Assembly: GCF_007859755.1 (NCBI RefSeq)
Contig: NZ_SJPF01000001.1
Location: 372,001 to 436,000, forward strand
Reading direction: 5' to 3'
DNA: 64,000 nt
Origin: Blastopirellula retiformator
GTDB lineage: Bacteria > Planctomycetota > Planctomycetia > Pirellulales > Pirellulaceae
The position numbers and the translations under genes are program-made. The notes beneath the pieces were generated by a model. It worked only from the letters and a program-made list of their open reading frames with translations, had not been told where the DNA came from and made no database searches. Positions 42,076-58,123 of this stretch are shown in pieces (positions within the stretch are counted from its first letter, which is position 1; every line of letters begins with the position of its first letter).

Positions 42076-43107
42076 CTACGGCATGATCTGCTGCGTGATG
42101 CAGTGATAGGCGCCGAGTCCCCAGACCAGGTCGAGCGCCGGAAGGGGTGCGATCTGACGATCGGGGAAGCAGCGTCGCATCACTTCGACCGCAGTTTCAT
42201 CAGCCGGGTCTTCAAACTGCGGCACGATCACGACGCCATTGGCGATGTAGAAGTTGCAGTAGCAGGCCGGGATCCGCTGCTCGCCGACAAACTTCGGCTG
42301 CGGCATCGGCAGTTTGATGACTTCAAACGGCTGGCCATGCTGATCGGTCATCTCTTCTAGGCGAGCAAAGTTCTCGGCGAGCGGCTCATGGTTTTCGTCG
42401 GCGGGGTTTTCTTCAAAGGCGGCGACGATCCGATTGGGCGCGACGAACCGGGCCAGTTCGTCGATGTGCCCGTCGGTGTCGTCCCCGACAATGCCGCGAC
42501 CGAGCCACAGCCCTTTATCAGCGCACAGATAGTCGCGCAGGTAACGCTCCATGTCGGCGCGATCAAGCTGCGGATTGCGGTTTGGATTCAACAGGCACTC
42601 TTCCGTCGTCAGGATGACGCCGGCGCCGTTTCCTTCGACGGCGCCTCCTTCAAGGATGATGCCGGGCTCAAAGTAGGGAACGTCCAAGTTGGCGAGCAGC
42701 CGCTGGGCCGACGCGTCATCGGCGTCCCATGGCGGATACTTACCGCCCCACGCGTTATACCGCCAATCGAGCGCCGCGCGAGGTTGGCCGCTGGGCGCCG
42801 ACAGGAAGATCGGCCCATGGTCGCGGGCCCACGCGTCGTTGGTTGCGATGTCATGCAGGGTGACGTTCGGTAGGTCGCCGACCAATCGCTGCGCTTCGGC
42901 CAGCGCTTCGCCGGCGGCTTGAATGTGGACTGGCTCATACTTGGACAAGGTTTGCACCAGCCGCTGATAGACGAGCGGAATCGGCGCGAACTTGTCGGGC
43001 CAGCTGTCGCGGTTGTGGGGCCACGACAACAGCGTCCCGGCATGCGGTTCCCATTCGGCGGGCCAACGATAGCCACGCTGGCGCGGCGTTCCTGTAAGCT
43101 TCGCCAT
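42076..43107 (-). CDS. aguA: Agmatine deiminase (peptidyl-arginine-deiminase family)
   Basis: The 343-residue protein has the guanidino-group-modifying enzyme signatures: PAEWEPHAGTLLSWPHNRD at the start, NDAWARDHGPIFL near residue 93, the EGGAVEGNG loop, GDDTDGHIDELARFV near 220 with the catalytic His and Asp residues, and the nucleophilic Cys in AYHCITQQ at residue 336. It converts agmatine to N-carbamoylputrescine with release of ammonia. Its start overlaps the stop of the upstream amidase gene by one base (TAATG), so the two are translationally coupled and form the agmatine route to putrescine. Confidence 0.93.
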   Translation of the reverse strand: MAKLTGTPRQRGYRWPAEWEPHAGTLLSWPHNRDSWPDKFAPIPLVYQRLVQTLSKYEPVHIQAAGEALAEAQRLVGDLPNVTLHDIATNDAWARDHGPIFLSAPSGQPRAALDWRYNAWGGKYPPWDADDASAQRLLANLDVPYFEPGIILEGGAVEGNGAGVILTTEECLLNPNRNPQLDRADMERYLRDYLCADKGLWLGRGIVGDDTDGHIDELARFVAPNRIVAAFEENPADENHEPLAENFARLEEMTDQHGQPFEVIKLPMPQPKFVGEQRIPACYCNFYIANGVVIVPQFEDPADETAVEVMRRCFPDRQIAPLPALDLVWGLGAYHCITQQIMP

Positions 43108-44003
43108 TAGAGCGCGCCCTCGTCGAGGTACCGCTTCGTCAGGCCGCTATAGGCGTCGATCCGGCGATCACGCAGGAAGGGCCAATGGGTGCGGGCGAAG
43201 TCGATCTGGGCCAGGTTGCACTCGACGACCAAGATCTCTTCCTGATCATGCGAGCCGACCTTCAGTAGGTTGCCGTTGGGATCGCTGACGAACGAGTGTC
43301 CCCAAAATTCGATTGTTCCTTCCAGGCCGACCCGATTCGGGGCGCAGACGAAGACGCCATTGGCGATCGCATGGCTCCGCATCATCGTTTCCCAGGCCGA
43401 AACCTGGGCGTCGCCGTACTCGTCTTTCTCATCGACCAGCCAACCAATGGCGGTCGGGTAGAAGAGCATCTGGGCGCCGGTCAGCGCGGTCAGGCGAGCC
43501 GCTTCGGGGAACCACTGATCCCAACAGACGCAAACGCCGACCCGGCCGAACTTGGTTTGGAACGAGCGAAAGCCGAGATCGCCCGGCGTGAAGTAGAACT
43601 TCTCGTAGTAGTGGGGATCGTCGGGGATGTGCATCTTGCGATAGATGCCCAACTGCGTGCCGTCGGCGTCGAAGATGACGGCGGTGTTGTGGTAGAGACC
43701 TTCGGCCCGCTTCTCAAACAGCGAGGCGATGACGACCACGCCATGCTTGGCGGCGGCGGCCTGAACCGCTTCGCTGGCGGGGCCGGGGATCGGTTCGGCT
43801 TCCTGAAACTTCAGGTGGTCTTCTTCCTGGCAAGGATATTGCCCGGCGAACAACTCTTGCAGGCAGACGATGTTGGCGCCCAGCTTGGCCGCTTCTGCGA
43901 TCTTGGCGACCGCCTTGTCGACGTTCTCTTGCTTGACGGTCGAACAGGTCATCTGCACGATGGCGACGTTCACTTTTTCAGGGGCTTTGGCAGGCATGGT
44001 CAT
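43107..44003 (-). CDS. aguB: N-carbamoylputrescine amidase (nitrilase superfamily)
   Basis: The 298-residue cytoplasmic enzyme has the nitrilase catalytic triad: Glu50 (CLQELFAGQYP), Lys123 (YRKMHIPDDPHYYEKF) and Cys160 (GVCVCWDQWFPE). The sequence around these sites, including PNRVGLEGTIEFWGHSFV, is characteristic of AguB/CPA rather than other nitrilases. It hydrolyses N-carbamoylputrescine to putrescine, carbon dioxide and ammonia. The agmatine deiminase gene follows with a one-base overlap. ATG codons at 44003 and 43997 are both plausible starts. No arginine decarboxylase is seen in the window. Confidence 0.93.
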   Translation of the reverse strand: MTMPAKAPEKVNVAIVQMTCSTVKQENVDKAVAKIAEAAKLGANIVCLQELFAGQYPCQEEDHLKFQEAEPIPGPASEAVQAAAAKHGVVVIASLFEKRAEGLYHNTAVIFDADGTQLGIYRKMHIPDDPHYYEKFYFTPGDLGFRSFQTKFGRVGVCVCWDQWFPEAARLTALTGAQMLFYPTAIGWLVDEKDEYGDAQVSAWETMMRSHAIANGVFVCAPNRVGLEGTIEFWGHSFVSDPNGNLLKVGSHDQEEILVVECNLAQIDFARTHWPFLRDRRIDAYSGLTKRYLDEGAL

Positions 44004-44688: not shown

Positions 44689-45174
44689 TCGAACTCGTTC
44701 GTTCGCGAGGAACGCCGAGTTCTATGTCGATCAAGACATTCTGCTCTGGTCACGAGGCGAAACTGGCGCTTTTGAGGTAGGAACCCCCGGACCTGTACCC
44801 TAGCTGCCTGTTGAAAAACGCCCTCGTGGCATTTTCCAACCTCGCCAGGCTCAGAGCATAGCTCTTCGCGGCTCGCAAAATAACGACTTACGTCGCTATT
44901 TTGGGATCGCATCCCTGCGATCCAGCAGCCCGTTGAGAAAATCAACGGACTGCTAGGTATGCAATCTAGCGAGTCGTTTGCGCACACAAACAGCAAGCGT
45001 CTCACCGCACACGCCCTTTATACTAATAGACCTGCTGACGAACCGTTCCGTTTCGCGATCCTCCCGCCCCGTTGTCGCGACTCCGATTCATCATCCCGGT
45101 TCGACTTGCGTCCCATCATGCGATCATAAGCGTTGCTATTATCTTTCGCATTCGTTCTGAAGGGACATGAAGCT
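44689..45174. other. Intergenic region containing a 157-bp mobile-like element
   Basis: Of these 486 bases, 44800-44956 is the repeated hairpin-rich element described separately. The rest has no coding sequence that looks real. The 3' part (44957-45174) probably contains the promoter of the following DUF1559 gene, with AGGGACATGAAGCT just before its start. Confidence 0.5.
44800..44956 (-). mobile_element. 157-bp CTAG-flanked hairpin-rich element, copy A
   Basis: This is the reverse complement of 57110-57266 with only three substitutions (at 44819, 44836 and 44866), 154 of 157 positions identical. Both ends carry CTAG. Imperfect terminal inverted repeats read CTAGCTGCCTGTTGA at the left end and, on the other strand, CTAGCAGTCCGTTGA at the right end. 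Five consecutive hairpins fill the element. It has no coding capacity. The form fits a MITE or other non-autonomous insertion element; CTAG at each end may be a target duplication. The strand given is chosen so that copy B is plus. Confidence 0.75.
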
Positions 45175-46206
45175 ATGACGAGAAATGCACGCCTTCGCTC
45201 GGCGTTTACCTTGGTCGAGCTACTGGTCGTCATCGCCATTATCGGCGTCTTGATCGCGTTGCTATTGCCGGCGGTGCAGCAAGCCCGCGAAGCGGCTCGG
45301 CGGATGAGCTGCAGCAACAATCTGAAGCAACTGGGTCTGGCGGTTCACAACTATCATGACACGTACGGCAAGCTGGTCGCCGGCGCCATTCCGCAATCGG
45401 CTAGCCTGCCGCGGGGTCGCGGCGTGTCGTGGATTGTGAGGCTGATGCCGTTCCTGGAACAGTCCAACGCTTTCGACGGCTTTGTGATGGCCGGCGACTC
45501 GACCATGCAGGACGGGGGCAGTCCGAACGCGGCGTTCATCAACGGTCTGGTCGTGCCGGGGCTGAATTGTCCCTCGTCTCCTTTGCCGACGGTCCGCGAT
45601 TGGAACAGTCCGCGCGAAGGGCAGATCGCCATTCAAATGGTCAACTACGTCGGCATCTCCGGTTCGTACTACACCGGTGGTACGAACGGCCAGTCGGGAG
45701 ACGAGTCGACGTTCGCCCGGATGGACGACTACACCGGCGGCAACGTGTTCAACGGCACGATCACGCACGTCTACGTGCCCGGCGGATCGGATCAGGAAGT
45801 CCCCGGCGGCATGCCGTACCTGTCGCAGACCGCTTTCAAGGACCTGCTGGACGGCACGTCGAACACGATGATGATCAGCGAGCAGGGAGACTATCAATAC
45901 GCGGCCGACGGCAGCAAGAATGATCGTCGTTCGTGCGGCTATCATGGGGGCGCCTGGTCCAATGGCGCCGGATCGGGCTGGTGGACGCAGAACCTGACCG
46001 TCTTGCGACATCCGATCGGAACCTCCGGCGGCGACGGCAACGGCGCGACCTACCAGGTGAACATTCCGCTCAGTTCGACGCATCCGGGGGGAGTGCTCGG
46101 AACGTTCGCCGACGGTTCGGTTCACTTTGTGTCGGAGACGGCCGACTTTGCAATTCTGACGGCGATCTGTGATCGTCAAGATGGCGCCGTGGTCGAAGCT
46201 CCGTAA
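45175..46206 (+). CDS. DUF1559 protein with type IV pilin-like N-terminus
   Basis: The 343-residue product starts at the ATG at 45175 (AGGGACATGAAGC upstream; frame open from 45133). The leader [20 protein letters not shown] is followed by [15 protein letters not shown] and NLKQLGLAVHNYHD. The C-terminal STHPGGVLGTFADGSVHFVS carries the full HPGG...DGSV signature of DUF1559. It is presumably processed by a prepilin peptidase and exported. A lipoprotein gene follows after about 105 bases, the same arrangement as at 27187-28587. The hairpin-rich mobile-like element lies 218 bases upstream. Confidence 0.93.
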   Translation: MTRNARLRSAFTLVELLVVIAIIGVLIALLLPAVQQAREAARRMSCSNNLKQLGLAVHNYHDTYGKLVAGAIPQSASLPRGRGVSWIVRLMPFLEQSNAFDGFVMAGDSTMQDGGSPNAAFINGLVVPGLNCPSSPLPTVRDWNSPREGQIAIQMVNYVGISGSYYTGGTNGQSGDESTFARMDDYTGGNVFNGTITHVYVPGGSDQEVPGGMPYLSQTAFKDLLDGTSNTMMISEQGDYQYAADGSKNDRRSCGYHGGAWSNGAGSGWWTQNLTVLRHPIGTSGGDGNGATYQVNIPLSSTHPGGVLGTFADGSVHFVSETADFAILTAICDRQDGAVVEAP

Positions 46207-46311
46207 TCGGCGGCGCGTTCTTCTTGCGAAGCATTTCATCCGCCGGCGAGCGTGCGGCGACGCCTCGCCGGCTGTGCGGATTCCTCCCCAGCGCCGCAAT
46301 CGGAGATTTTT

Positions 46312-46746
46312 ATGACGACGCAAATGCGACACGTCGCTTTCCATCTGCTGCGCACTTGGCCGGCGATTGCGCTGGTCTGTCTGCTGAGCGGATGCGGAAG
46401 CGATCCCTACGGCGTGAGTCAGGTAACCGGCCTGGTCACGATGGACGGCGCTCCCTTGCCGAGCGCGACGGTCAGCTTTCACCCGGTCAGCGGTCGCCCA
46501 GCCAAAGGGGTGACCGATCAAGAGGGCCGTTACGAACTGATTTACATTCGCGACGTTCGGGGCGCCGAGCCAGGTTCTTACACAGTGCGGATCACGACAT
46601 TTCGCGAAGTGGCGCCAGACCCGATCCCCGGCCGAGTGCCGCCGGAGTCGATTCCCGTCCGCTACAACCGCCGCTCGATGCTGGCGGCGGAAGTCGAGGA
46701 AGGGGACAACGAGATCAACTTCGACTTGACGTCGGCCAAGCGGTAA
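46312..46746 (+). CDS. Small lipoprotein with carboxypeptidase-regulatory-like domain
   Basis: From the ATG at 46312 (frame open from 46252) the product is 144 residues. A lipoprotein signal peptide ends in the lipobox LLSGC. The mature protein is a single beta-sandwich: VTGLVTMDGAPLPSATVSFH, then GRPAKGVTDQEGRYELIYI and PGSYTVRITTF, the pattern of the carboxypeptidase-regulatory/transthyretin-like fold. It is the partner of the DUF1559 gene just upstream and an analogue of the lipoprotein at 28174. It converges on a CorA-like gene, 12 bases between stops. Confidence 0.85.
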   Translation: MTTQMRHVAFHLLRTWPAIALVCLLSGCGSDPYGVSQVTGLVTMDGAPLPSATVSFHPVSGRPAKGVTDQEGRYELIYIRDVRGAEPGSYTVRITTFREVAPDPIPGRVPPESIPVRYNRRSMLAAEVEEGDNEINFDLTSAKR

Positions 46747-46758
46747 CGGCGACGCCCG

Positions 46759-47562
46759 TTACCGCGCTTGATGTGGATCACGTAGCGGCCGGGCTTCGCT
46801 ATCTTTGCGGCGGGGTCGTTTGCCGGGGCCAATCGGGGCGCTGACGAACGTCCACAGGATGAAGCCCAGCAACAGCCCGACGCCGGTCATGGTGATAAAC
46901 GGCCAGGGGGCGGCCCAGTCCTCAAAGCCGTGATGCAGGTCGGCGCCAAAGATCGTCGCCAGGGTGACGATCGGAAAGAAGAAGGCGGCCAGCACGTTGA
47001 GCCGATGCGCCGACACCGACATCCGATGCGCGGCGTCGGCCTGGCGTTCGGTCTGCTGGGCGATGGCGAAGTCGAGTTCGTTCTTCGCTTCGGTGTAGAG
47101 CAGCTCCGCTTTCCGCTCAAGCTCGTACGCGCGGTCGCGGGCGTTGATCAACGCCTTGTCGTCGCCACTTTTCTCGCGGGCCTGCTGCAGCACGGCGTGC
47201 ATGTTGCGAGTCGCCCGGAACAGGGGACTAAGATCGGAGATTACCTGGAAGTAGGCGGCGCTCCCTTCGGCCGCCTCTTCTTCTTTCTCTAGCCGGTCGA
47301 TTGCGGCGGAGTATTGGGCCAGGTGCCGGGGCAGGGTTCCTTCGCCGGTTCCCAAGTCGCTCGAGTTCCACTCGCGTTTCGCATCGCGCCAAAAGAATCG
47401 CCCGATCCGATTTTTTTCGCCCGGCTTGGGAGGTTGGTGCAAAACGAGCAGGAGATGATCGTCGGCCTGCATGACCCGCTGCTTGCCGACTTGATCCCCC
47501 AAACGGCGTCGAAATGCGTCGGGGACTTCCCAAATTGCGGGTAAAAGCGACTTTGCGTTCAT
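46759..47562 (-). CDS. CorA-like membrane protein lacking the GMN motif
   Basis: The 267-residue protein has a soluble helical N-terminal region with a long coiled-coil-prone segment (about 90-180) and two C-terminal membrane helices (about 188-207 and 220-240), as in CorA magnesium channels (RLNVLAAFFFPIVTLATIFG). The CorA selectivity motif GMN that should end the first helix reads GAD here, so the ion specificity, or even transport, is uncertain. A basic tail ends the protein. It is shorter than typical CorA (about 316). Its start is separated by 231 bases from the divergent DUF1080 gene. Confidence 0.65.
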   Translation of the reverse strand: MNAKSLLPAIWEVPDAFRRRLGDQVGKQRVMQADDHLLLVLHQPPKPGEKNRIGRFFWRDAKREWNSSDLGTGEGTLPRHLAQYSAAIDRLEKEEEAAEGSAAYFQVISDLSPLFRATRNMHAVLQQAREKSGDDKALINARDRAYELERKAELLYTEAKNELDFAIAQQTERQADAAHRMSVSAHRLNVLAAFFFPIVTLATIFGADLHHGFEDWAAPWPFITMTGVGLLLGFILWTFVSAPIGPGKRPRRKDSEARPLRDPHQAR

Positions 47563-47793
47563 GGATGGACTCGCAGGATGGACAAAATTCGCCGCTCACT
47601 TGAGATTCGCGACAAGGGGCTCTCTATTGCTCAAAAATAAGGTCTAATTCGAAAGGCGGCTGCGAATAGACAGTAAACTTTGCAGCTGTTATCCTCGAAT
47701 TGTCGGCTTATTAACATCCGCTGACGAGCAATTTTGCCAGATTTACCACCTTATCCCCCCCGGGATTCAACCAGCAGATATTGGAGATAGCGA

Positions 47794-48441
47794 ATGATGC
47801 GTTTGACTTCCCTGAGCCTCTTTTCCTTGAGCCTTGTGTGCGTCGCCCTGGCGGCCGTTTCGGCCAATGCCGCGGAAGACGACAAGGGCTGGACCGCGCT
47901 GACCGACGGCAAGAGCTTTGACGGTTGGAAGATCAACGAGAGCGAAAAGTCGTGGAGCATCAAAGACGGCGCATTCGTCGCCAAGGGGGGCCGCAGCCAT
48001 TTGTTCTACGTCGGTGACGAAAAGCCGTTCGAGAACTTCATTTTGAATCTCAAAGTGATGACCAAGAACAACAGCAATGGCGGCGTTTACTTCCACACGA
48101 AGTATCAAAAGGAAGGCTGGCCGAAGAATGGCTTCGAATGCCAGGTGAACAACAGCTACAACTCCGACCCGCGCAAGACCGCCAGCGTCTACGCCGTGAA
48201 GGACGTGATGGAAGCTCCGGCCGGCGACGATGAGTTCTTCGATTACACCATCGAAGTCAAAGACAAGACCGCCAAGCTGTACATCAACGGCAAGCTGGTC
48301 AACGAGTACACCGAACCGGAAGGGACCGAAGCCGGCAAGGATTTCACCCGCGTCTTTGACAAAGGGACCTTCGCGCTGCAGGCTCATGATCCCGGCAGCA
48401 CGGTCTACTACAAAGACATCCGCGTGAAGCGCCTGCCGTAG
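47794..48441 (+). CDS. DUF1080 secreted protein (3-keto-disaccharide hydrolase-like)
   Basis: The 215-residue protein has a signal peptide (about 1-26) and one concanavalin-like jelly-roll domain. The motifs GWTALTDGKSFDGWKI, FILNLKVMTKNNSNGGVYFH and GFECQVNNSYNSDPRKTASV are the standard DUF1080 blocks. Characterised relatives hydrolyse 3-keto-disaccharides or bind glycans in the periplasm. The gene stands alone with GGAGATAGCG before its start and ends in a clear terminator 32 bases after the stop codon. Confidence 0.92.
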   Translation: MMRLTSLSLFSLSLVCVALAAVSANAAEDDKGWTALTDGKSFDGWKINESEKSWSIKDGAFVAKGGRSHLFYVGDEKPFENFILNLKVMTKNNSNGGVYFHTKYQKEGWPKNGFECQVNNSYNSDPRKTASVYAVKDVMEAPAGDDEFFDYTIEVKDKTAKLYINGKLVNEYTEPEGTEAGKDFTRVFDKGTFALQAHDPGSTVYYKDIRVKRLP

Positions 48442-48473
48442 GCCGGGCCCGCTAACGCGAAAATGAGAACCCC

Positions 48474-48510
48474 AAAAAGCCGTTGGCAGCGATGCCGGCG
48501 GCTTTTTTTT
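48474..48510 (+). terminator. Rho-independent terminator after the DUF1080 gene
   Basis: A 14-bp stem with two G-T pairs (AAAAAGCCGTTGGC / GCCGGCGGCTTTTT), a six-base loop and a run of eight T. Confidence 0.88.
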
Positions 48511-48605
48511 GTCAATTATCGGTTGTTTCTTTGCGAGCGATTGCGATCTACAATAAGGGAAATAAATTTTCCTACCCCAAACCCCGCCTTTTTGGAGCTT
48601 ATCGC

Positions 48606-50669
48606 GTGATTCGACACTGCGCTTTGCTGGCCATCATGCTGGCCACCTGTCTTACCGCTCGACTCTCAGCAGCCGAGCCGAGCCACGACGTTGTGATCTA
48701 CGGCGGCACTTCGGCGGCGATTGCGGCGGCGGTGCAGGCGAAACGGATGGGCAAGTCGGTGATCGTCGTCTCGCCCGATAAGCACTTGGGCGGCCTGACC
48801 AGCGGTGGTCTTGGTTGGACCGACAGCGGGAACAAAGCGGCGATCGGCGGGATCTCGCGTGAGTTCTACCAACGCGTCAAAAAGCATTACGATCAGCCGT
48901 CGGCCTGGCGACAACAAAAGCCAGAGCAGTACAGCCGATACCGAAAAGACGACGACTCGATGTGGGTCTTTGAACCGCACGTCGCTGAGCAGATCTTTGA
49001 AGACCTGGTCGAAGAGTACAAGATTCCGGTCGTTCGCGACGCCTGGCTCGATCGCGAGAATGGCGTCGAAATGAAAGATGGCAAGATCGTCTCGATCAAG
49101 ACGCTCGACGGCAAGACCTACGCTGGCAAGATCTTCATGGATACGACCTACGAAGGGGACCTGATGGCGGCCACCGGCGTTTCGTACTTCGTCGGCCGTG
49201 AAGCGAACGAAGTCTACGACGAGACGATGGATGGCGTGCAGACGGCCCGCGCTCGCTCGCACCAGTTCGACTATCCGGTTGATCCCTACGTGGTGAAGGG
49301 AGATCCCAGCAGTGGGCTGCTGCCGAAGATCTCGGACAAGCCGCCGGGAGTCGATGGTCAGGGAGACAAGAAGTTGCAGGCCTACTGCTTCCGCACCTGT
49401 CTGACGACCGCCAAAGACAATCAGGTTCCGTTCCCGAAGCCGGAAGGCTACGACGCCAACGACTACGCGCTGCTGGGACGTTACTTGGCCGGCGGCTGGA
49501 AGGGCGTGTTCAACAAGTTTGACCCGGCGCCGAACCAGAAGACCGACGTCAACAATCATGGCGGGTTCTCGTTCGACAACATCGGCATGAACTACGACTA
49601 TCCGGAAGCGTCGTACGAGCGTCGTCAGGAAATCATCAAGGAACATGAGAACTACCAGATCGGTTTGCTCTACTTCCTGGCCAACGACCCGAGCGTGCCG
49701 GCCGACATTCAGGCTCGGATGCAGAAGTGGGGCCTGTCGAAGGACGAGTTCGTCGACAACCACAACTGGCCGCATCAGCTCTACATTCGCGAAGCCCGCC
49801 GCATGGTCAGCGACTTTGTAATGTCGGAGCAGTACCTGCGGGCGCTGAAGCCGACGCCGGAATCGGTCGGTCTCGGTTCGTACAACATGGACTCGCACAA
49901 CACGCAGCGATACGTCGACAAGAATGGCCACGTCCGCAACGAAGGGGACATCCAGGTCAGCCCCGGCGGCGCCTATCCGATCAGCTATCGTTCGATCGTG
50001 CCGAAGAAGCAAGAGTGCGCAAACCTGCTGGTGCCGGTTTGCGTCTCGTCGTCGCACATCGCCTACGGTTCGATCCGCATGGAGCCGGTCTTCATGATCC
50101 TGGGCCAATCGGCCGCCACCGCCGCCAGTTTGGCGATCGATGGCGACAAAGCGGTGCAGGACGTCACCTACGACCAGCTGCAGCCCCGTCTGTTGGCCGA
50201 CGGCCAAGTGTTGGAAATGAAACGCAAGCCGAAGCCGTCGACCGTCGTGCTGCGAGCCGATAGCCTGCCGGGGATCGTGGTCGACGACGTCGACGCCGAA
50301 ACGGTCGGTACGTGGGCTTCCAGCAGCGTGGTGCAGCCGTACGTCAACAGCGGCTACCTGGCCTATGACGCCAAGACCAAGGCGAAAGCTTCGATCACGT
50401 ACAAGACGAAGCTGAAGCCGGGCAAGTACGACGTTCGCGTCTCTTATTCGCCCAACGCCAACCGCGCGACCAACGTCGCCATCACGGTCAGCTCGGGCGA
50501 CAAGACGTACGAGGCCGAACTGAACCAACGCGAAAAGCCGACCCACAACAAGGCGTTCGCGTCGATCGGCCAATACGACCTGTCAGGCGAAACGACCCTA
50601 ACCATCTCCGGCGAAGGCGCCAACGGCTACGTGATCGCCGACGCGGTCTCGTTCGTGCCGGTGAAGTAG
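48606..50669 (+). CDS. Secreted FAD-dependent oxidoreductase with golvesin-like C-terminus
   Basis: The product is 687 residues from the GTG at 48606, preceded by GGAG; the frame is open from 48483 but that part overlaps the upstream terminator. A signal peptide (about 1-22) precedes an FAD-binding GGTSAAIAAAVQAKRMGKSV motif near residues 31-50, followed by the body of the FAD-dependent oxidoreductase family that is widespread in planctomycetes. The C-terminal 140 residues (from about 545: LPGIVVDDVDAETVGTWASS to ADAVSFVPVK) form a golvesin/xanthan-lyase-type beta-sandwich, also present at the N-terminus of the DUF1549 protein at 30825. A role in periplasmic sugar oxidation or polysaccharide breakdown is likely but not specific. 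Confidence 0.88.
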   Translation: MIRHCALLAIMLATCLTARLSAAEPSHDVVIYGGTSAAIAAAVQAKRMGKSVIVVSPDKHLGGLTSGGLGWTDSGNKAAIGGISREFYQRVKKHYDQPSAWRQQKPEQYSRYRKDDDSMWVFEPHVAEQIFEDLVEEYKIPVVRDAWLDRENGVEMKDGKIVSIKTLDGKTYAGKIFMDTTYEGDLMAATGVSYFVGREANEVYDETMDGVQTARARSHQFDYPVDPYVVKGDPSSGLLPKISDKPPGVDGQGDKKLQAYCFRTCLTTAKDNQVPFPKPEGYDANDYALLGRYLAGGWKGVFNKFDPAPNQKTDVNNHGGFSFDNIGMNYDYPEASYERRQEIIKEHENYQIGLLYFLANDPSVPADIQARMQKWGLSKDEFVDNHNWPHQLYIREARRMVSDFVMSEQYLRALKPTPESVGLGSYNMDSHNTQRYVDKNGHVRNEGDIQVSPGGAYPISYRSIVPKKQECANLLVPVCVSSSHIAYGSIRMEPVFMILGQSAATAASLAIDGDKAVQDVTYDQLQPRLLADGQVLEMKRKPKPSTVVLRADSLPGIVVDDVDAETVGTWASSSVVQPYVNSGYLAYDAKTKAKASITYKTKLKPGKYDVRVSYSPNANRATNVAITVSSGDKTYEAELNQREKPTHNKAFASIGQYDLSGETTLTISGEGANGYVIADAVSFVPVK

Positions 50670-50694
50670 TTAAAGGCCGCAGATAGAAATCGTG

Positions 50695-50726
50695 AAGCCG
50701 CACGAGAGCAATTTTCGTGCGGCTTT
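50695..50726 (+). terminator. Rho-independent terminator after the FAD oxidoreductase
   Basis: An 11-bp stem (AAGCCGCACGA / TCGTGCGGCTT) with a nine-to-ten-base loop and a short T-rich tail, 26 bases after the stop codon. Confidence 0.75.
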
Positions 50727-50818
50727 ATTCGTATGCGGGGCTTATGATATGCTTGGGCCGTACTCGATGAAACGGCCAGCCAGCGGCGTTGGTTCAACTG
50801 CACTTGATTGGTATCGAA

Positions 50819-51460
50819 ATGTCGGAAGCATCCAGCGCAGCGGCGACAGCGAGATTTCCGACGTTTTCGGCGAACTTGCTGCTGTTGAAGATGTTGCCGT
50901 GGATGTTTTCCGGGGTGACGCTGTTGCTACTGGTAATCGCCATTGGCGAATGGATGAACGAACGGCCAACTAGCGCACCCAGCGTCTGGCAAGCTGTACC
51001 GATCTCTGTTGGGATAACGGTGGTCGCTTGGTGGACCTATCGGAGATATGAACGTCATCTATTACGCCTCGGTCGTGAAGGCGTCGAAATAAGTCTCTGT
51101 TTTGCCGTCTTAAGATCTTGGAATCTAGGTATTTTTTCGTCGATTCTCTTCGGCAGGACCCGTTACGGTTTTATTCGCTGGGAGGAGTTGTCTAGCATAG
51201 AGGCGCGGAGCAGCATTCCTGAATATCCTTGCCGGGGCAGATTTAGCCCCGCTCTGATCCTGACAGGAAACGTCTGGCCTATTTTGAATAGAACGTCGTC
51301 GGTCGGAGATGCGCCGCTGGCTGACGCGTTAGCGATCCAATCCGCATGGATCACCTCTTCTCCCAGTCGTGTCGCCGCGCAAATCGAGCCCTACCTGAAA
51401 GATCCCCAACTACGCCAAACGCTTCCCAGCTTGCGGGAAACGGATTTGGCTGCGGAGTAG
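50819..51460 (+). CDS. Two-helix membrane protein of unknown function
   Basis: From the ATG at 50819 (frame open from 50789) the product is 213 residues with two membrane helices (about 27-46 and 60-80) and a cytoplasmic C-terminal domain of about 130 residues (RYERHLLRLGREGVEISLCF and YGFIRWEELSSIEARSSIPE). The arrangement resembles bacterial PH-like or YcxB-type membrane proteins but no family is certain. It converges on the FloA operon, 21 bases between stops. Base composition is lower in GC than in its neighbours. Confidence 0.6.
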   Translation: MSEASSAAATARFPTFSANLLLLKMLPWMFSGVTLLLLVIAIGEWMNERPTSAPSVWQAVPISVGITVVAWWTYRRYERHLLRLGREGVEISLCFAVLRSWNLGIFSSILFGRTRYGFIRWEELSSIEARSSIPEYPCRGRFSPALILTGNVWPILNRTSSVGDAPLADALAIQSAWITSSPSRVAAQIEPYLKDPQLRQTLPSLRETDLAAE

Positions 51461-51481
51461 ATTTGGCGGCCGAAACGAGAC

Positions 51482-52102
51482 CTAAAATCGATTCGGACGA
51501 TTCATGATCTCGTTCAGCACGATCACCTTGCGGATGTCGCTGGGGCTCCGGAACATGGCGGCCAGTTCGGCGGCGGTGTCGCTTGATTTGAGTTCGTGTC
51601 CTTCGTCGTCCATGCCACCCAGGTCGTAGTCGTACGCTTCCGGTTCGCGGGGGTCTTCTTGGACCGCTTGCAGATAGGCTTCGACGGCGTCGGTGTAGCC
51701 TTCGCCTTCGCTGGGAAGCTCTTCCTGCTCGGTTTTGATGTGATGACTGGGCAGCTCGTCATGGGCCGACAGCGAGGGGAGGGGAGCGACGACTTCGGCC
51801 TGGACCATTTCCCGGTCCGAGGCGTACTGCGGCGGAGCGTCCTGATAGGGACGTTGTTGGCCCGGTTTGTTGCCGCCGGCTTGCTGCAGGAACTGGGCGA
51901 TTTCCGATTCGAGATCGTTGCCGGCTTGTTGCGGACGAGGACGCTGCGGCGCCCGCGGTTTTTGCGGCGCCGGCGTATGGTCCTGTTGCTTCGTCTTGCC
52001 GCCGAACAGTTTGAGGATCGCCGGGCCAATGACGAACAGCAGCACGATCACGATCCGAATGATCGTGTCGATGTCGGCGGCAAATAGAATCGGCAACTGC
52101 AT
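51482..52102 (-). CDS. Proline-rich single-pass membrane protein, last gene of the FloA operon
   Basis: The 206-residue protein has one N-terminal membrane helix (about 12-32), then a long low-complexity Gln/Pro/Lys-rich stretch (KQQDHTPAPQKPRAPQRPRP) and an acidic C-terminal half with a conserved-looking end, ELAAMFRSPSDIRKVIVLNE. It starts 24 bases after floA on the same strand, so it is probably co-transcribed with the two NfeD genes and floA. Planctomycete FloA loci often carry such a protein; no function is known. Confidence 0.7.
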   Translation of the reverse strand: MQLPILFAADIDTIIRIVIVLLFVIGPAILKLFGGKTKQQDHTPAPQKPRAPQRPRPQQAGNDLESEIAQFLQQAGGNKPGQQRPYQDAPPQYASDREMVQAEVVAPLPSLSAHDELPSHHIKTEQEELPSEGEGYTDAVEAYLQAVQEDPREPEAYDYDLGGMDDEGHELKSSDTAAELAAMFRSPSDIRKVIVLNEIMNRPNRF

Positions 52103-52126
52103 GAGCTTCGTTTCTTACGCGGCGCG

Positions 52127-53167
52127 TTACTTCGAGGAATTCGAGCCGGAGAGGGCGATCGACTTACGCATGTCGGTGTCGGCTTGCACGTTGCGAAGCG
52201 AGTAGTAGTCCATGATGCCCAAGCGGCCCGACTGGAACGCTTCGGCCATCGCGGCCGGCACTTCCGCTTCCGCTTCGACCAACGCCGCTTTGGCGTTTTC
52301 GATCTCGGCCATGTTTTCTCGTTCGGCGGCGACCGCCATGGCCCGCTTCCCTTCTGCCCGGGCGCGAGCGACGCGGGTGTCGGCTTCGGCCTGATCGGCG
52401 CTAAGCCGGGCGCCGATGTTCTCGCCGACGTCGATATCGGCGATGTCGATCGAAACGATTTCAAACGCGGTGTTGTGGTCAAGTCGACGACCAAGCACCG
52501 TCTTGGAGATCATGTCGGGATTTTCGAGCACGGTCGAATGAGTCTCGGCCGAACCGATCGCGCTGACGATGCCTTCGCCGACGCGGCCGATGATCGTCTC
52601 TTCGGTGGCGCCGCCGATCAGCTTTTGCAGGTTGGCCCGCACCGTCACGCGAGCTTTCACCTTCAGCTGGATGCCGTCTTTGGCGACCGCGTCGAGCGAG
52701 GGGCGAGCGGCGCCGCGCGGGGGACAGTCGATCACTTTTGGATAGACGCTCGTTTGCACCGCTTCCAGCACGTCGCGGCCGGCCAGATCGATGGCGGTCG
52801 CTTCGCGGAAGGTGAGCTGAATGGTTTTGGCTTTGTTGGCGGCGATCAACGCCCGAATCACCAGCGGCACGTTGCCGCCGGCCAGGTAATGCGCTTCGAG
52901 CGACTTGCTGGTGATGCCGGTGCTTTCGCCCAGGCCGGCTTGCACCGCCATGATCTTGCTGCGGACGATCGTCTTCGGATTCACTTTGCGGAACGACATG
53001 CCGATCAGGTCGAGCAGGCCAACCCCGGCGCCGGTCCAGATCGATTGAATCCAGAGACGGAAGTAATAGGCGACGATGCCGAAAATGATCAGACCGATAA
53101 CCGCGACGACCAGCATCCCAAAAATGATGAGGGGACCAAGGTTGTCGAATAGGGCGGCGACTAGCAT
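52127..53167 (-). CDS. floA: Flotillin-like protein FloA (SPFH/band-7 family)
   Basis: The 346-residue protein has an N-terminal membrane hairpin (about 12-36, [20 protein letters not shown]) and the SPFH domain. Diagnostic FloA stretches are [71 protein letters not shown] and the C-terminal coiled coil ([20 protein letters not shown]). FloA assembles functional membrane microdomains that organise signalling and secretion complexes. It is encoded after two NfeD-type genes, the conserved partners, 76 bases downstream of the second. Confidence 0.97.
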
Positions 53168-53243
53168 AGCGGGTTACTTCTCACTTTCGGGGGTGTCGGA
53201 CCGAATCTCCGACCTCATGTTTAAACCGGTTTTATACCTCAAG

Positions 53244-53834
53244 TCAAGCGAACGGATCCTCCAGCGGATCGATTCCGAGCGACTCGAGCGGCTGCGAATA
53301 GGGATCCGTGGCGCCAGGCTCGGCCGGGCGGGGAGCGGCATCGGGGTGATCTTCGGCCCGCACGACGACCAATTGGGTGCCGTCGACCTCGACCACTTCG
53401 ATTTTTTCGCCCGATTCGATGGCCCCTGATTCGCTGATCACATTCCAGCTTTCCCCTTCAATTTCGGCAAATCCGCCCGGCAACAGCGGGCAAGAGGCGA
53501 CCCCCACCTTGCCGACGAGTTTGGCCAGGTGGTCTTCCTCGGCCTGTTCCTCTTTCGACTGCGACGGCGTGTTCAGCAGCACCATCCGCCCGATCGGCGT
53601 GTGAGGCCAATACTTGACCGCCAGCATAAAGAGAATCGGCATCGCGAAGACCGAACCGCCCAAAAACAGGGTGCCGATCCCCGGGCCACAGTAGAAATAG
53701 GCGAAGCCGATCGAACTGATCATCGACACAAAGGCGAGCACGCCCAGGATGCCGGCCGACGGCAGCAGGAACTCAAGAAAAATCAGCCCCACGGCGATCG
53801 CCATCAGGATTAGCGCAAAATAAATGGGCGGCAT
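53244..53834 (-). CDS. NfeD-family membrane protein (short, NfeD1b type)
   Basis: From the ATG at 53834 (AGGA upstream; frame open to 53849) the product is 196 residues: three to four membrane helices in the first 75 residues (YFALILMAIAVGLIFLEFLL and later) followed by a soluble OB-fold domain from about 95 (LVGKVGVASCPLLPGGFAEI and EVVEVDGTQLVVVRAED). This is the classical NfeD C-terminal domain. The tail (about 165-196) is a Pro-rich extension. It lies between the long NfeD protease gene and floA, and probably works with both in membrane microdomains. Confidence 0.93.
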   Translation of the reverse strand: MPPIYFALILMAIAVGLIFLEFLLPSAGILGVLAFVSMISSIGFAYFYCGPGIGTLFLGGSVFAMPILFMLAVKYWPHTPIGRMVLLNTPSQSKEEQAEEDHLAKLVGKVGVASCPLLPGGFAEIEGESWNVISESGAIESGEKIEVVEVDGTQLVVVRAEDHPDAAPRPAEPGATDPYSQPLESLGIDPLEDPFA

Positions 53835-53874
53835 GCTCGTTTCCTGCAATTTCTTAGGCGTAGCGCGGGTGCGT

Positions 53875-56025
53875 TTACTTGGGCTTCACCAACAAGTAGT
53901 TTCCGCGAGCCGCGATGGCGATCAACTCGGCGCCGCGCGGCGCGAAACCGGTCTCGCACGTCACGTTCACTAGTTCACGACCAAACTTCGCCTTGCCGCC
54001 GGGGACCAGTTGCGACTGGGCGACGCCGGTTTCTCCGACCAGGTGCGACAGGTCGACGATCATCTCGCGACGATGTTGCTCTTCGGCCGCATCTTCGTCG
54101 GGCGGATGGAGCATCGTTTCTCGCAGATAGGGGACATGCGGCACGATATGCTTGGCGAACATCAGCGAAGCGAGGATCGCCCCCATCACGATAAAGATGT
54201 TGGCCAGCGAGTAAGGGACCTGCGCCAGTTGATAGTCGGTTTGCGGCCAGATGAATGTCTGACTGGCGAGCACGATTGAGGCCAGGATCATCGCGCCCCC
54301 CCCCAGCCCGAAAATGCCGAAGCCGGGCAAGACGAAGATCTCGATCGCGACGAAGCCGATCCCGCCGATAAACAGCAGCACCTCGAGCCAGCCGGCGGTG
54401 CCGCTTAAGAATTGGCTCCAAAAGTAGAAGCCAAAGCAGATCGCCGCCATAAAGCCGAAGATGCCGATGCCAGGCGCCTGCATTTCCATGATCAACGCCG
54501 AGATGCCAACGAACAGAAAGAACCACGCCAGCCCCGGATGCGCCAAAGCGTCGATCAGCTGATGCGCCCAAGTCCGTACCGGCTGCGAGATCTCGCCGCT
54601 GACGCCATACCGCCGGGCGACGTCGGTGGCGTCGGCCGCGATTGCATCGGCCAGCCGCAGATCAAACGCCTGACCGCCGGTCAGCTGGAGCGGCTGTCCC
54701 GGCGTCGTGATCACTTCGGTCTCTTCCCACATCTCGGGGGCGATCTGCTGCTTCAGTTCTTCCTGGCAAAAGAGGGCGGTCAGCCCGGATTGCTTGTGAC
54801 GATAGTTGGCGACTTCCAGCTGCGGATCGACCATCGCCGCCCACGCCGACCAGCGGCGCTCTTTGTTCTCGCCGACCTGAATCAGAAAGTTGCGGACGTC
54901 GACCGTGCCTTGTTCGCTGTATTGATAGCCGCCGGGGCCGCCGAGCGTCGCGTCGGTCGCAACGACGATCTCGTCGCAGGCAAACGGAACAATCGCCGCA
55001 TTGCTGGCTGCGACCCCTTTGACCAGGGCGACGGTGCGAACTTCGTCCGGCTGCTTCAGCAGGAAGTTCATCAGCGATTCGACCGCCACCGGATCGCCGC
55101 CGGGCGAGTCGATTTCGAGCAGGACGAGATTCACTTTGCTCGCGACTTCGCTCTGAATCATCCGCATCACTTGTTGCACTTGATTGTGCGTGATGGCGCC
55201 GCTTAGCTGAACCTGCGTCGCTTTCCAGTCCCGTTCGAGCGAATAGTCGAGCTGGAGATCAACGTCCGGCACTTCCAACTGTTGGGCAAGCTGCTGCTGC
55301 GACTCGGCCAGGTGGCTGATCAACTGATACTTCAGCCGAAGATCGCGACCGGTGAAGATCGCCAGTTCGCCGGCCGAGACGATTTTCTCCGACTTGGCGA
55401 CTTCGCCTGCTTTCTTCATCGCTTCGTATTGTTCGCCGCTGACGAACTGGCGATCGTTGACGCGAAAAACTTGCGCTTGGCGATCGAGCATCGCCACGGC
55501 GATCGCTTGCGGCAGCGAGTTGCGGAAGCCGGCGATCTCTTCGTACGCCTTCAGCATGGTGCCGGAGATCGACTTCTCTTTGATCCCAGCGTCTCCCAAC
55601 TGCGCATCGGGCGCCATGATGATCTGTTCGCAGGCCAGCGGCAGCAGTACCGCGTGGCCGGTGACCGACTCTGGCAGATAGGCGACCGTGCGGACGCGAC
55701 TCATTTCGGTCGACGTTAAGAAGCGAGCCAGCGCCAGACAGCGTTCAAACTGGCTGTCATCCGCTGATTCGCCGCGCCCGGGGCGAAGCTCGAGCACCAA
55801 GACCGGGCGAGGCTCGACACTGGGAAGCGCCTGCAGGGCCCGCTCGATACTTTGCTGGATCGCCACATCGGACGAACCGGCGATCGGCAGCGAGATCCGT
55901 ACGCGGGCCGCTTGCCGCTGGGCGTCTTCTTGCGCCGGCAGCCAGGTAGCGCCGCTGATCACGCCCAACAGCGCAAGCAAGATCGAGACGTGCCGGTAGC
56001 GTCCTGGGGAGACTGGTAGTTGCAT
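53875..56025 (-). CDS. NfeD-family ClpP-class serine protease (long, NfeD1a type)
   Basis: From the ATG at 56025 the product is 716 residues with a signal peptide. Two ClpP/crotonase-like halves are visible. The first (about 40-230, ESVTGHAVLLPLACEQIIMA) lacks the nucleophile. The second (about 270-430) has EIDSPGGDPVAVESLMNFLL and the serine motif GVAASNAAIVPFACDEIVVA with Ser near residue 340. About five membrane helices (490-620) and a C-terminal OB-fold (AQSQLVPGGKAKFG to the end) follow. It cleaves membrane proteins near the bilayer in characterised relatives. It is the first gene of the NfeD1a-NfeD1b-floA unit, 40 bases before the next. Confidence 0.93.
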   Translation of the reverse strand: MQLPVSPGRYRHVSILLALLGVISGATWLPAQEDAQRQAARVRISLPIAGSSDVAIQQSIERALQALPSVEPRPVLVLELRPGRGESADDSQFERCLALARFLTSTEMSRVRTVAYLPESVTGHAVLLPLACEQIIMAPDAQLGDAGIKEKSISGTMLKAYEEIAGFRNSLPQAIAVAMLDRQAQVFRVNDRQFVSGEQYEAMKKAGEVAKSEKIVSAGELAIFTGRDLRLKYQLISHLAESQQQLAQQLEVPDVDLQLDYSLERDWKATQVQLSGAITHNQVQQVMRMIQSEVASKVNLVLLEIDSPGGDPVAVESLMNFLLKQPDEVRTVALVKGVAASNAAIVPFACDEIVVATDATLGGPGGYQYSEQGTVDVRNFLIQVGENKERRWSAWAAMVDPQLEVANYRHKQSGLTALFCQEELKQQIAPEMWEETEVITTPGQPLQLTGGQAFDLRLADAIAADATDVARRYGVSGEISQPVRTWAHQLIDALAHPGLAWFFLFVGISALIMEMQAPGIGIFGFMAAICFGFYFWSQFLSGTAGWLEVLLFIGGIGFVAIEIFVLPGFGIFGLGGGAMILASIVLASQTFIWPQTDYQLAQVPYSLANIFIVMGAILASLMFAKHIVPHVPYLRETMLHPPDEDAAEEQHRREMIVDLSHLVGETGVAQSQLVPGGKAKFGRELVNVTCETGFAPRGAELIAIAARGNYLLVKPK

Positions 56026-56261
56026 CGCGAATCTTCGCAAAGTGGTGGTGCTCGTCGGTGGCCGTAAGAAGTTATCGAACGTATCTGGATAGGAATTCGT
56101 CGCTAATCTCTTCAGCTTACCGAGAATCCGACGCCCAAATTATAGAACGTCTCCAACATCCAGCCAACAAACGAGTTGCAATCGTTACGAGCTGCGAAAA
56201 TAGGACAACCAGGGCAGGGGCGAAGTTCAAGCAATTCTCGCAGCGGAGAATCAGCCGTCCG

Positions 56262-56966
56262 CTAGTGCAGGTTCACTTCCAGGATCTGGAAATTGAGCCC
56301 CGGCATCGCCGCGCCCCCGTTGTGAAAGTGAACCCCTTGATAGCAGTAGCGGTTCATCGGGACGTGCGTATGGCCAAAATAGACCTCAGACAGGCCCGAA
56401 TCGACCCCGTGCCCGACCGACTCAAGATACGACAAAATCCGCCGGGCGACGAGACGCTTGGGGTTGATCGCAAAGCTGACCGCTTTGTGCAGACGGGCTT
56501 TTACCGCCAGATCGTACAGCTGGTGATGGTAGGCGGGGCGGCGACGAGGCTGATGATGGGTCGCCCGAGCGGCAATCAGTCCGGCGGCGTCCATGTGACG
56601 ATTGGCGACGTCGCCATGCAGCATCAACGTGTCGCCGATCCGCAAGTAAAAGGGCTCCCAGGCCAGATTGGAGAGGGAATCGGAGAGTTCATCGAGTCGC
56701 TCGACGAACAGCGGCAAACAGTCATGATTGCCGAGCAGATAATGAAACTGGCAATCGGGATGGGCTGTGATAAAGCGCTGCAGCCAATCGATCGCGGCGT
56801 CCACGGTCGCTTCGACCGATGGCAGCGTCGACCAGTCGAAATCGAAGATGTCTCCCCCCAGGATGAACGTCGATCCGGTTGCGGCTCGCTCGTTGAAAGC
56901 GGCCTCGTACTGGGCGGCGTTCGACCGGGCGGAAAAGAGATGCAAGTCGGAGACGAAGTAGTGCAC
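56262..56966 (-). CDS. Metallophosphoesterase, LpxH-like
   Basis: The 234-residue protein begins at a GTG at 56966 with GAG nearby (HYFVSDLHLF); a longer TTG start at 57011 is possible. The full calcineurin-like metal-binding set is present: DLH (residue 7), GDIFDFD, GNHDCLPLF, MLHGDVANRHMD and FGHTHVPMN. Such enzymes include UDP-2,3-diacylglucosamine diphosphatase (LpxH) of lipid A synthesis, and the sequence between GDIFDFD and GNHD fits that group. No other lipid A genes lie here, so the substrate is not certain. A 157-bp hairpin element is inserted 143 bases upstream of its start. Confidence 0.8.
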   Translation of the reverse strand: MHYFVSDLHLFSARSNAAQYEAAFNERAATGSTFILGGDIFDFDWSTLPSVEATVDAAIDWLQRFITAHPDCQFHYLLGNHDCLPLFVERLDELSDSLSNLAWEPFYLRIGDTLMLHGDVANRHMDAAGLIAARATHHQPRRRPAYHHQLYDLAVKARLHKAVSFAINPKRLVARRILSYLESVGHGVDSGLSEVYFGHTHVPMNRYCYQGVHFHNGGAAMPGLNFQILEVNLH

Positions 56967-57109
56967 GGCGGACTCGATCCTGACAACGGACGACGGCAAA
57001 GGGGACCGCAAACAGGCCCTATTCTTTATATACGTCGCTAGCGATCGAAAAAGCGAAAAATATCAGCGGGCGCCTGTATCGTAGCCGGCCGCAACGTCTG
57101 GGAAAAAGC

Positions 57110-57266
57110 CTAGCAGTCCGTTGATTTTCTCAACGGGCTGCTGGATCGCAGGGATGCGATCCCAAAATAGCGACGTAAGTCGTTATTTTGCGAGCCGCGG
57201 AGAGCTATGCTCTGAGCCTGGCGAGGTTGAAAAATGCCACGAGGGCATTTTTCAACAGGCAGCTAG
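57110..57266 (+). mobile_element. 157-bp CTAG-flanked hairpin-rich element, copy B
   Basis: Inverted copy of 44800-44956 (154 of 157 identical). In order it holds hairpins at 57112-57142 (13-bp stem), 57143-57162 (8-bp perfect), 57163-57190 (12-bp, one G-T pair), 57201-57213 (AGAGC/GCTCT) and 57226-57256 (13-bp perfect, loop ACGAG). CTAG occurs at both ends. Imperfect inverted termini begin CTAGCAGTCCGTTGA and CTAGCTGCCTGTTGA. There is no open frame. The right-hand CTAG overlaps and provides the stop codon of the minus-strand gene at 57263-58123. A MITE is the best guess; a transcribed structured RNA is an alternative. Confidence 0.75.
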
Positions 57267-58123
57267 CCAGCTAAGAGTGTAGAGCCGTCTTTCTGGAAAC
57301 TGACGAAGAAGAAGCGGACCACGTCGGAACCGGCTTGCGAACTGTCTCCTTGCCAGAGCACGGTATACGATTTCCCGTCGAGCGAAAACTTGTAGACGAT
57401 CGCCGCTTGCGGGCCTTCCTGCGGGATATCGCCAGCCAGGCGAATGCGGTGAACTTGCGCCCCGCCGGCAAAATGAGAAGTACGATTGGAAACGTCCATC
57501 AGGTTGGCCGAATCGACATTCCGCTTCGCTTCGGCGACCGAGATCTGCCCGGTTAGATTGTTCCAATCGTCGTTGGCCTGGTCGCGCACTTCGACCAGAA
57601 AGCGTCCGAACTCGGGATCCTCGCACAGCCAGATCGGGGCGCCGGCGTCTGGAACGCTCTCGGTGGGTGATCCGGGGAACTGAATCGACCAGCCGGCAGG
57701 GTCCTTGTACGGACTCCAGTCCAAGCGATCGGTCAGCGGCGGCGCGCCAGCGCCGCGGGCAGTCGATCCGACGGGGATCTCCAGCGAACTCGCCTCTTGC
57801 AGCGCGATCTTGGCGCCGATTCCCAAAACGACCGCCAATATCAGCAGCGAGCCGATCATCATCACCTGGCGACGAAACTTGCGTTTGGCGAGCGATTGCG
57901 CTGCGCGATCGGCCAGGGGGTCTTTCAGCGGAATCTCGGCGTCGTCGATCAAATTGCGCGACATGGCCGGTGCGCCTCGAAACGTTTTCGGGCCCGGCGT
58001 ATCCGCCCCCGAAACGATCCGCGTCGGTTCGCCGCACTTTGGGCAGCGAACCTTCTTGTCGGCCAACCGTTCGGCGGCTTCAAAGGTGGCTCGGCAGTGC
58101 GAACAGGTCGCGACGATCGGCAT
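57263..58123 (-). CDS. Zinc-ribbon membrane protein, shorter paralogue
   Basis: The 286-residue protein starts MPIVATCSHCRATFEAAERL with a four-cysteine zinc ribbon (CSHC...CPKC, residues 7-30). It has a basic linker, one membrane helix (about 88-107) and a C-terminal domain of about 150 residues containing GWSIQFPGSPTESVPDAGAP and ending FFFVSFQKDGSTLLAG. The C-terminal domain and zinc ribbon match the larger gene at 58262-59944, 138 bases upstream on the same strand. Its stop codon TAG is formed by the terminal CTAG of the adjoining 157-bp element, so insertion there has set the C-terminus. Confidence 0.8.
   Translation of the reverse strand: MPIVATCSHCRATFEAAERLADKKVRCPKCGEPTRIVSGADTPGPKTFRGAPAMSRNLIDDAEIPLKDPLADRAAQSLAKRKFRRQVMMIGSLLILAVVLGIGAKIALQEASSLEIPVGSTARGAGAPPLTDRLDWSPYKDPAGWSIQFPGSPTESVPDAGAPIWLCEDPEFGRFLVEVRDQANDDWNNLTGQISVAEAKRNVDSANLMDVSNRTSHFAGGAQVHRIRLAGDIPQEGPQAAIVYKFSLDGKSYTVLWQGDSSQAGSDVVRFFFVSFQKDGSTLLAG

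Follow-up and report, generated by a model that had tools for sequence, protein, structure and literature searches.

The 64,000-nucleotide stretch of the Blastopirellula retiformator genome analyzed here (the window, C1:372001-436000 within a 6.2-Mb, 10-contig genome) carries two copies of a short non-coding element built as a chain of five hairpins (H1-H5). The element is best read as a 149-bp miniature inverted-repeat transposable element (MITE) that is mobilized by a transposase of the IS1182 family of insertion sequences (IS) and whose fold is maintained for its own propagation; we put the probability of this reading as a whole at about 0.65. It rests on terminal inverted repeats (TIRs) shared with IS1182-like transposons, a 4-bp target-site duplication (TSD) with an empty site, and paired changes in the hairpins between families of the order.

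The hairpin element and its copies in the own genome

The two copies lie 12 kb apart in inverted orientation and differ at three of 157 positions (98% identity). Both end in CTAG at each extremity and have imperfect inverted termini, as a first-pass annotation of the window had described (Table 1). They were the sole matches in a covariance-model scan of the window. Folding bore out the five-hairpin interior described in that annotation, with H4, the fourth hairpin, being short and enclosed by a GCC/GGC stem. The minus strand of copy 1 folded at -82.3 kcal/mol (z -8.1, with none of 200 shuffles as good) and its plus strand at -62.2 kcal/mol (z -5.3); the better-folding strand is the minus strand for copy 1 and the plus strand for copy 2. 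Frames of the mechanical list of open reading frames (ORFs) cross copy 1, and none is gene-like and restricted to the element, in agreement with the earlier statement that it has no internal coding frame. Rfam gave no match in the window at the gathering score and none at E up to 1 in three other loci (L012, L033, and L036).

The first-pass annotation had also proposed counting copies, comparing empty sites, searching for an autonomous element that shares its ends, and building a covariance model. The count showed that the element extends well beyond the window: the core pattern matched the genome 276 times (control, 0), a figure that includes IS-interrupted copies and omits those in which the core is absent. 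A 380-kb stretch of contig C4, taken without selection, yielded 24 non-redundant model matches of at least 81 bits, comprising 15 full-length copies (157-158 bp), one diverged copy of 155 bp, and eight of 101-132 bp. Several of the shorter copies lacked H3, and some also part of H2; two copies of 123 bp had lost H3 at identical breakpoints.

The tetramers at the two ends were equal in 28 of 30 copies of the own genome, being CTAG, TTAG, CTAA, CTAC, or ATAA. Since they vary together among copies, CTAG represents the duplicated target and the element proper measures 149 bp once the outer CTAGs are set aside. A script count over 75 distinct own copies, about 30 of which were picked as best matches to copy 1 and hence lean young, found a perfect 4-bp TSD in 62, with the consensus YTAR. 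The empty-site comparison showed that in another genome of the same genus (G002) the flanks of copy 2 are contiguous around a single CTAG. The recent spread suggested by the first-pass annotation is thus borne out by the genome-wide count and by the absence of copy 2 at this orthologous site. That annotation had further contrasted the element with MITEs on the ground that these usually have one long terminal inversion. This contrast was not supported, as imperfect TIRs of about 11-15 bp, a TSD with an empty site, the lack of a transposase gene, short length, many copies, and an autonomous relative with the same (IS1182-type) ends were all found. The identification as a MITE is therefore well supported.

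Solo 27-bp palindromes were considered as independent elements and rejected, as equal flanking tetramers occurred in only one of four (L083, L084, L090, and L094); no solo 27-bp palindrome outside longer elements, and one 41-bp palindrome, was found in the 380-kb C4 stretch. Nearly perfect 41-bp palindromes made from the left end alone, with YTAR on the flanks, were observed at L089:1326-1374 and L148:13883-13931. The plasmid and phage collections gave no match to the element. Among viral contigs, 13 stretches carried the core pattern, and the model confirmed one of the 13 (L299, cut off at its end).

IS1182-like transposons with near-identical ends

The candidate mover was sought through DDE_Tnp_1_6 genes and then with the L129 protein as query in 26 genomes, nine of which gave transposase matches. 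One element each in G033, G001, G116, G224, and G025, representing four families, had both ends CHGCCYGTTGAA and a TSD of CTAG or TTAG (loci L244, L246, L248, L245, and L251); one end or none was seen in the remaining four genomes. The query protein comes from G033, and the best segments in G001, G116, G224, and G025 were 61-64% identical to it. For the three proteins tested, the best NCBIfam match was IS1182, at a score under the curated cut-off. The assignment of the MITE ends to the IS1182 type is well supported, and the similarity of the ends indicates that the MITE is probably moved by an IS1182-type transposase.

The shared sequence does not extend inward. With E values up to 1 allowed, model R1, built from 44 sequences, matched none of the loci that hold the five two-ended transposons, which shows that transposons and MITE have only their ends in common; a single match at E 0.24 was obtained in an IS1182-like locus of the own genome (L247). 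No inverted copy of the TIR was present in the first 100 bp of the five transposons, with two mismatches allowed. The MITE interior is not a deletion remnant of an IS1182-like transposon.

Conservation of the hairpin chain across the order

The covariance model recovered matches across the order, with strong paired changes. With an E-value limit of 1e-4, R1 gave matches in 63 of the 396 genomes and 28 of the 144 genera, and matches better than 1e-20 were found in families f1, f2, f4, f7, f10, f14, f19, and f20. Family f8 contributed 35 of the 63 genomes, with weaker matches of 125-129 bp where listed. Eleven f8 loci (L193-L203) have the ends and the hairpin chain in common with the element and differ in the core linkers; the f8 matches were accordingly rejected as members of the same family and treated as a sister MITE family. 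These f8 hairpin-chain elements measure about 126 bp and have CTAGCAG-type ends and another core.

The comparative counts were made on sequence set A3 (23 sequences from 17 genomes and eight families), which, like A1 (44 sequences), is our own selection; A3 leaves out the partial or weak copies L213-L225 and the f8 loci. In A3, 91.4% of the cells pair, compared with 33-43% when the structure is slid along the sequences. Two-sided changes occurred in 28 of 52 pairs against a shuffled mean of 13.9 (reached in none of 500 shuffles), and the score was 0.279 against 0.127 for shuffled and 0.040-0.071 for slid structures. While the stems differ, the linkers GCGAGCCG and TGGCGAGG are near-invariant. 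The H2 loop contains GGA in all 23 members, as judged by eye; in a script-based count, 48 of the 49 foreign copies had GGA within the H2 stretch, and 77 of the 80 own copies had NGGA in the H2 loop.

In a quick tree, copies clustered mostly by genome, those of G027 and of G033 each together and those of G025 in two main groups plus one copy, a grouping that suggests separate bursts. Two diverged copies from genomes of the host's genus, L216 (G001) and L219 (G003), have common flanks and a long GC-rich H5 hairpin, and may represent another fixed copy.

A single-copy relative was found in genus g38. A core-model search of the 241 genomes of family f1, run under the stricter filters of a large search, gave matches only in g1 (four genomes) and g38 (five genomes, one copy each). 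All five g38 copies (L204-L207 and L273) occupy the same gap of a large tRNA cluster, with tRNA-Asp(GTC) on one side and, on the other, a gene for which ARAGORN gave tRNA-Val(TAC) in three genomes and tRNA-Cys(ACA) in the other two. The copies keep the linkers and the GGA loop as well as hairpins, whose arms differ in sequence; clear TIRs are not seen, and H4 is absent in two of the five. We read this relative as an old insertion retained as a structured spacer or RNA, although it could have descended from a non-mobile ancestor.

Strand preference and the level of selection

Of the 23 A3 members, 22 fold better on the same strand. Over the 52 pairs, GU cells outnumber AC cells by 56 to 25 (at 29 and 19 pairs, respectively), by 45 to 25 without one GU-consensus pair, and by 38 to 14 without two decayed copies, the last exclusion having been decided post hoc. 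If a dimer read the palindrome as DNA, neither strand would be preferred; the bias to one strand thus suggests a single-stranded molecule.

Within the own genome, changes were counted in 72 copies, namely 78 of 80 distinct full-length sequences minus six that were IS-interrupted or odd-ended. Singletons fell on 49 of 103 stem sites and 18 of 46 unpaired sites (p 0.5; with all 78 copies, 49 of 103 and 23 of 46). As stem and unpaired sites were affected alike, inserted copies appear to decay without clear regard to structure. Single changes gave GU in 40 cases and AC in 35, and there were 164 single stem changes against five re-paired double changes. The strong selection on individual copies that had been offered as one reason for the near-identity of the window pair is contradicted by these counts; what selection sees appears to be the spreading lineage, not the single copy. 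A fold kept between lineages and not in single copies is what would be expected if the fold serves the element.

The main rival is that the element is an ordinary MITE in which self-repair of the palindrome arms, by template switching in replication, yields the paired changes by itself and no function is involved. The neutral appearance of individual copies, the frequency of hairpin-sized deletions, and the symmetry of palindromes in DNA are all in agreement with such a process. Arm correction does not, however, explain the near-constancy of both linkers and of the GGA loop in eight families, and the strand bias also stands against it. The ratio of single to re-paired double changes in the 72 copies shows, moreover, that correction is not fast. 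We consider self-repair alone an unlikely explanation, and it is likely that the fold is maintained for the element's own spread.

Insertion sites and the RNA gene alternative

Insertion contexts were determined with gene calls from a simple codon-bias script. Among 71 copies with usable flanks, the TSD lay on a stop codon in 22, elsewhere between genes in 45, and inside an ORF in four. The corresponding figures for 1473 background YTAR sites, which take in the elements' own ends, were 119, 628, and 726, so that stop codons are enriched (p 2e-8 against all YTAR sites and p 0.001 against non-coding sites alone). The bias arises because the TSD contains TAG or TAA and the frame stays closed. Copy 2 itself sits on such a stop codon, which the duplication restores. 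This type of landing shows how a dense genome can host hundreds of insertions with little damage. Where both flanking genes were called (64 copies), 25 contexts were convergent, eight divergent, and 31 codirectional. The folding strand was antisense to the genes in 22 of the 31 codirectional contexts; for the 22 stop-codon cases (23 genes) it was antisense in 13 and sense in 10, with no clear bias.

These orientations bear on the proposal of the first-pass annotation that the element is a mobile structured RNA gene. Its transcript might act in trans, for example as a partner, via the H2 loop, of a protein that reads GGA, such as CsrA, whose site this loop may resemble; the element would then have been amplified for the host or be tolerated by it. 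The compensatory changes across families uphold the structured part of the proposal, and the retention of GGA or NGGA despite a variable H2 stem, together with the homologue that five g38 genomes each carry once in the same gap of a tRNA cluster, would suit an RNA product. The RNA gene itself is unproven: no sigma-70-type promoter was found within 601 bases around either window copy, the folding strand is mostly antisense in codirectional contexts, and individual copies look neutral and decay in a structure-blind manner. A host RNA gene is possible, and the evidence inside the own genome does not support it; a mobile gene with a trans-acting transcript appears improbable.

IS4-family elements

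A 1.55-kb IS4-family element was examined as a parent from which the MITE might have arisen by deletion, since its copies in L069 and L071 are flanked by MITE sequence 91-100% identical. Such an origin is scarcely credible: the IS4-family element is a passenger inserted into the H5 loop. Its ends CAATACYGTTCGGCACGCC, of about 20 bp, are its own, its TSD measures 9-11 bp as against 4 bp for the MITE, and its copy L070 sits outside MITEs. It was accordingly rejected as parent. MITE sequence was present on one or both sides of six of seven examined copies (L069, L071, L072, L078, L079, and L087), with the border at the H5 loop, and the MITE looks like a favoured target of this element. For relatives of the 426-amino-acid IS4 protein in named genomes, no MITE ends were found at the 19 loci checked out of 25. 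A second IS4-like element (L058-L066), present in about nine or ten copies, has a transposase ORF of mostly 406 amino acids and ends CACGGCGATTGCGCCATGAT; a 10-bp TSD was seen in L060, L061, and L063.

Proposed mechanism and its significance

Ends that are almost the same and a matching type of TSD suggest that an IS1182-type DDE transposase recognizes the MITE ends in trans, inserts the element at YTAR, and duplicates 4 bp; the duplication and the empty site are observed directly. The single-strand fold would be retained since it helps propagation of the element. In each of the terminal hairpins, H1 and H5, a TIR is joined to its own inverted copy. The inner hairpins, together with the constant linkers and the NGGA loop, may be bound, either as RNA or as single-stranded DNA, by a factor of the host or of the transposase. 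An inserted copy would be close to neutral for the host, and copies would persist between genes, often on a stop codon, since duplication of the TAG or TAA leaves the reading frame terminated. A bolder version, in which spread requires the multi-hairpin single-strand fold besides the IS1182-type ends and the g38 copy became fixed in the tRNA cluster as a structured spacer or RNA, is put forward only tentatively.

Several observations weigh against a MITE that is mobilized by IS1182 and maintains its fold. With regard to the mover, the autonomous element with the same ends exists in five related genomes, but no intact IS1182-like gene was found in the own genome, which holds one fragment and one one-ended copy (right end only; an IS3-like sequence seems to have cut off the left part). 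Seventeen of the 26 genomes had no transposase match, and 13 of these 17 hold MITE matches better than 1e-20. The gene in L246 has a stop, L251 is a broken 1077-bp copy, and two mismatches to the transposon ends lie within the first 12 bases of one MITE end. Among the 49 copies examined in other genomes, no more than 18 had an exact TSD. With regard to the fold, several derivatives lack H3, some of them also part of H2, at more than one site, so that the inner hairpins may not be needed. The excess of GU is modest (p 0.02 without the GU-consensus pair, the cells not being independent) and is not seen inside the own genome, where singletons gave GU 6 against AC 14. Singletons in the linkers of the 72 copies were fewer (5 of 19 sites against 62 of 130 other sites), a difference that is not significant (p 0.27).

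The usual view of MITEs is that they are leftovers of an IS and that nothing but their ends matters; in the present element the interior fold is kept through compensatory change across families. As single insertions decay as if neutral, any selection for the fold would need to operate at the level of the spreading lineage. Host function and element function are thereby set apart, and structure-driven transposition of MITEs becomes a directly testable question.

Features in the window

Parts of both copies are listed in Table 1. Positions 42076-44003 of the window hold adjacent genes which, from their sequence, presumably encode an agmatine deiminase and an N-carbamoylputrescine amidase.

Table 1. 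Positions of the two element copies and their parts in the window.
Feature	Position	Strand	Evidence
Copy 1 with both target duplications	44800..44956	- (strongly folding strand)	Sequence, fold, model scan
Left TSD CTAG, copy 1	44800..44803		Terminal 4 bp co-vary among other copies
Right TSD CTAG, copy 1	44953..44956		Terminal 4 bp co-vary among other copies
TIR CTGCCTGTTGAAAAAC	44804..44819	+	Sequence; near-identical ends in IS1182-like elements
TIR CAGTCCGTTGATTTTC	44937..44952	-	Sequence; near-identical ends in IS1182-like elements
H1, TIR and its own inverted copy, with first TSD base	44925..44953	-	Fold, pair counts
H2, variable stem, conserved NGGA loop	44904..44923	-	Alignment, pair counts, loop counts
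H3, 12-bp stem	44876..44903	-	Fold, pair counts
H4 in GCC/GGC stem, between conserved GCGAGCCG and TGGCGAGG	44844..44872	-	Fold, alignment, pair counts
H5, long stem; loop is the IS4-family insertion point in other copies	44810..44840	-	Fold, pair counts
Copy 2 with both target duplications	57110..57266	+ (strongly folding strand)	Sequence, model scan, G002 empty site
TSD CTAG, copy 2	57110..57113		Sequence, empty site
TSD CTAG, copy 2; 57263-57265 is the TAG stop of ORF 57263-58123 (-)	57263..57266		Sequence, ORF list, empty site
H1 of copy 2	57113..57141	+	By position
H2 of copy 2, loop GGGA	57143..57162	+	By position
H3 of copy 2	57163..57190	+	By position
H4 of copy 2	57194..57222	+	By position
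H5 of copy 2	57226..57256	+	By position

Comparison with known systems

ERIC and Correia elements are likewise imperfect palindromic repeats of about 100-150 bp. REP elements are GTAG-tagged palindromes without TSD, and RAYT transposases are associated with REP/GTAG palindromes. Like these, the present element is palindromic, extragenic, and multicopy; its IS1182-like TIRs and 4-bp YTAR duplication set it apart from REP. REP/GTAG palindromes are extragenic, occur in many copies, and have been reported from Planctomycetes too (PMC3733652); the terms "CTAG," "Blastopirellula," and "IS1182" are absent from the text of that paper. In the portion of the open-licence PubMed Central literature covered, no description of the element was found. 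A candidate motif named "Rhodopirellula-1" appears in a table of PMC2864571 (2010) and is conceivably the same element. The portion of a review of prokaryotic MITEs covered (PMC10969869) contains no occurrence of "IS1182" or "planctomycet-."

IS1272, a member of the IS1182 family, to which the transposases of the elements sharing the MITE ends belong, is described as using stem-loops as targets and replacing them without a TSD (PMC5678879). The present element, by contrast, inserts with a 4-bp TSD at an ordinary empty site. BOX of Streptococcus pneumoniae is likewise a modular structured repeat with many copies, modules absent at times, and TIRs likened to those of an IS (PMC3049150). It has another host and other modules. 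Structure prediction for BOX drew on 30 sequences from a single genome, and no word beginning with "covaria-" occurs in that text (PMC3049150). RUP is described as a MITE mobilized by a resident IS, IS630-Spn1 (PMC3049150). MITEs of the RUP type share with the present element short length, lack of coding capacity, IS-like TIRs, many copies, and the ability to fold if transcribed; the present element differs from them in its IS1182-type ends, its YTAR duplication, and its five-hairpin chain with compensatory changes across families.

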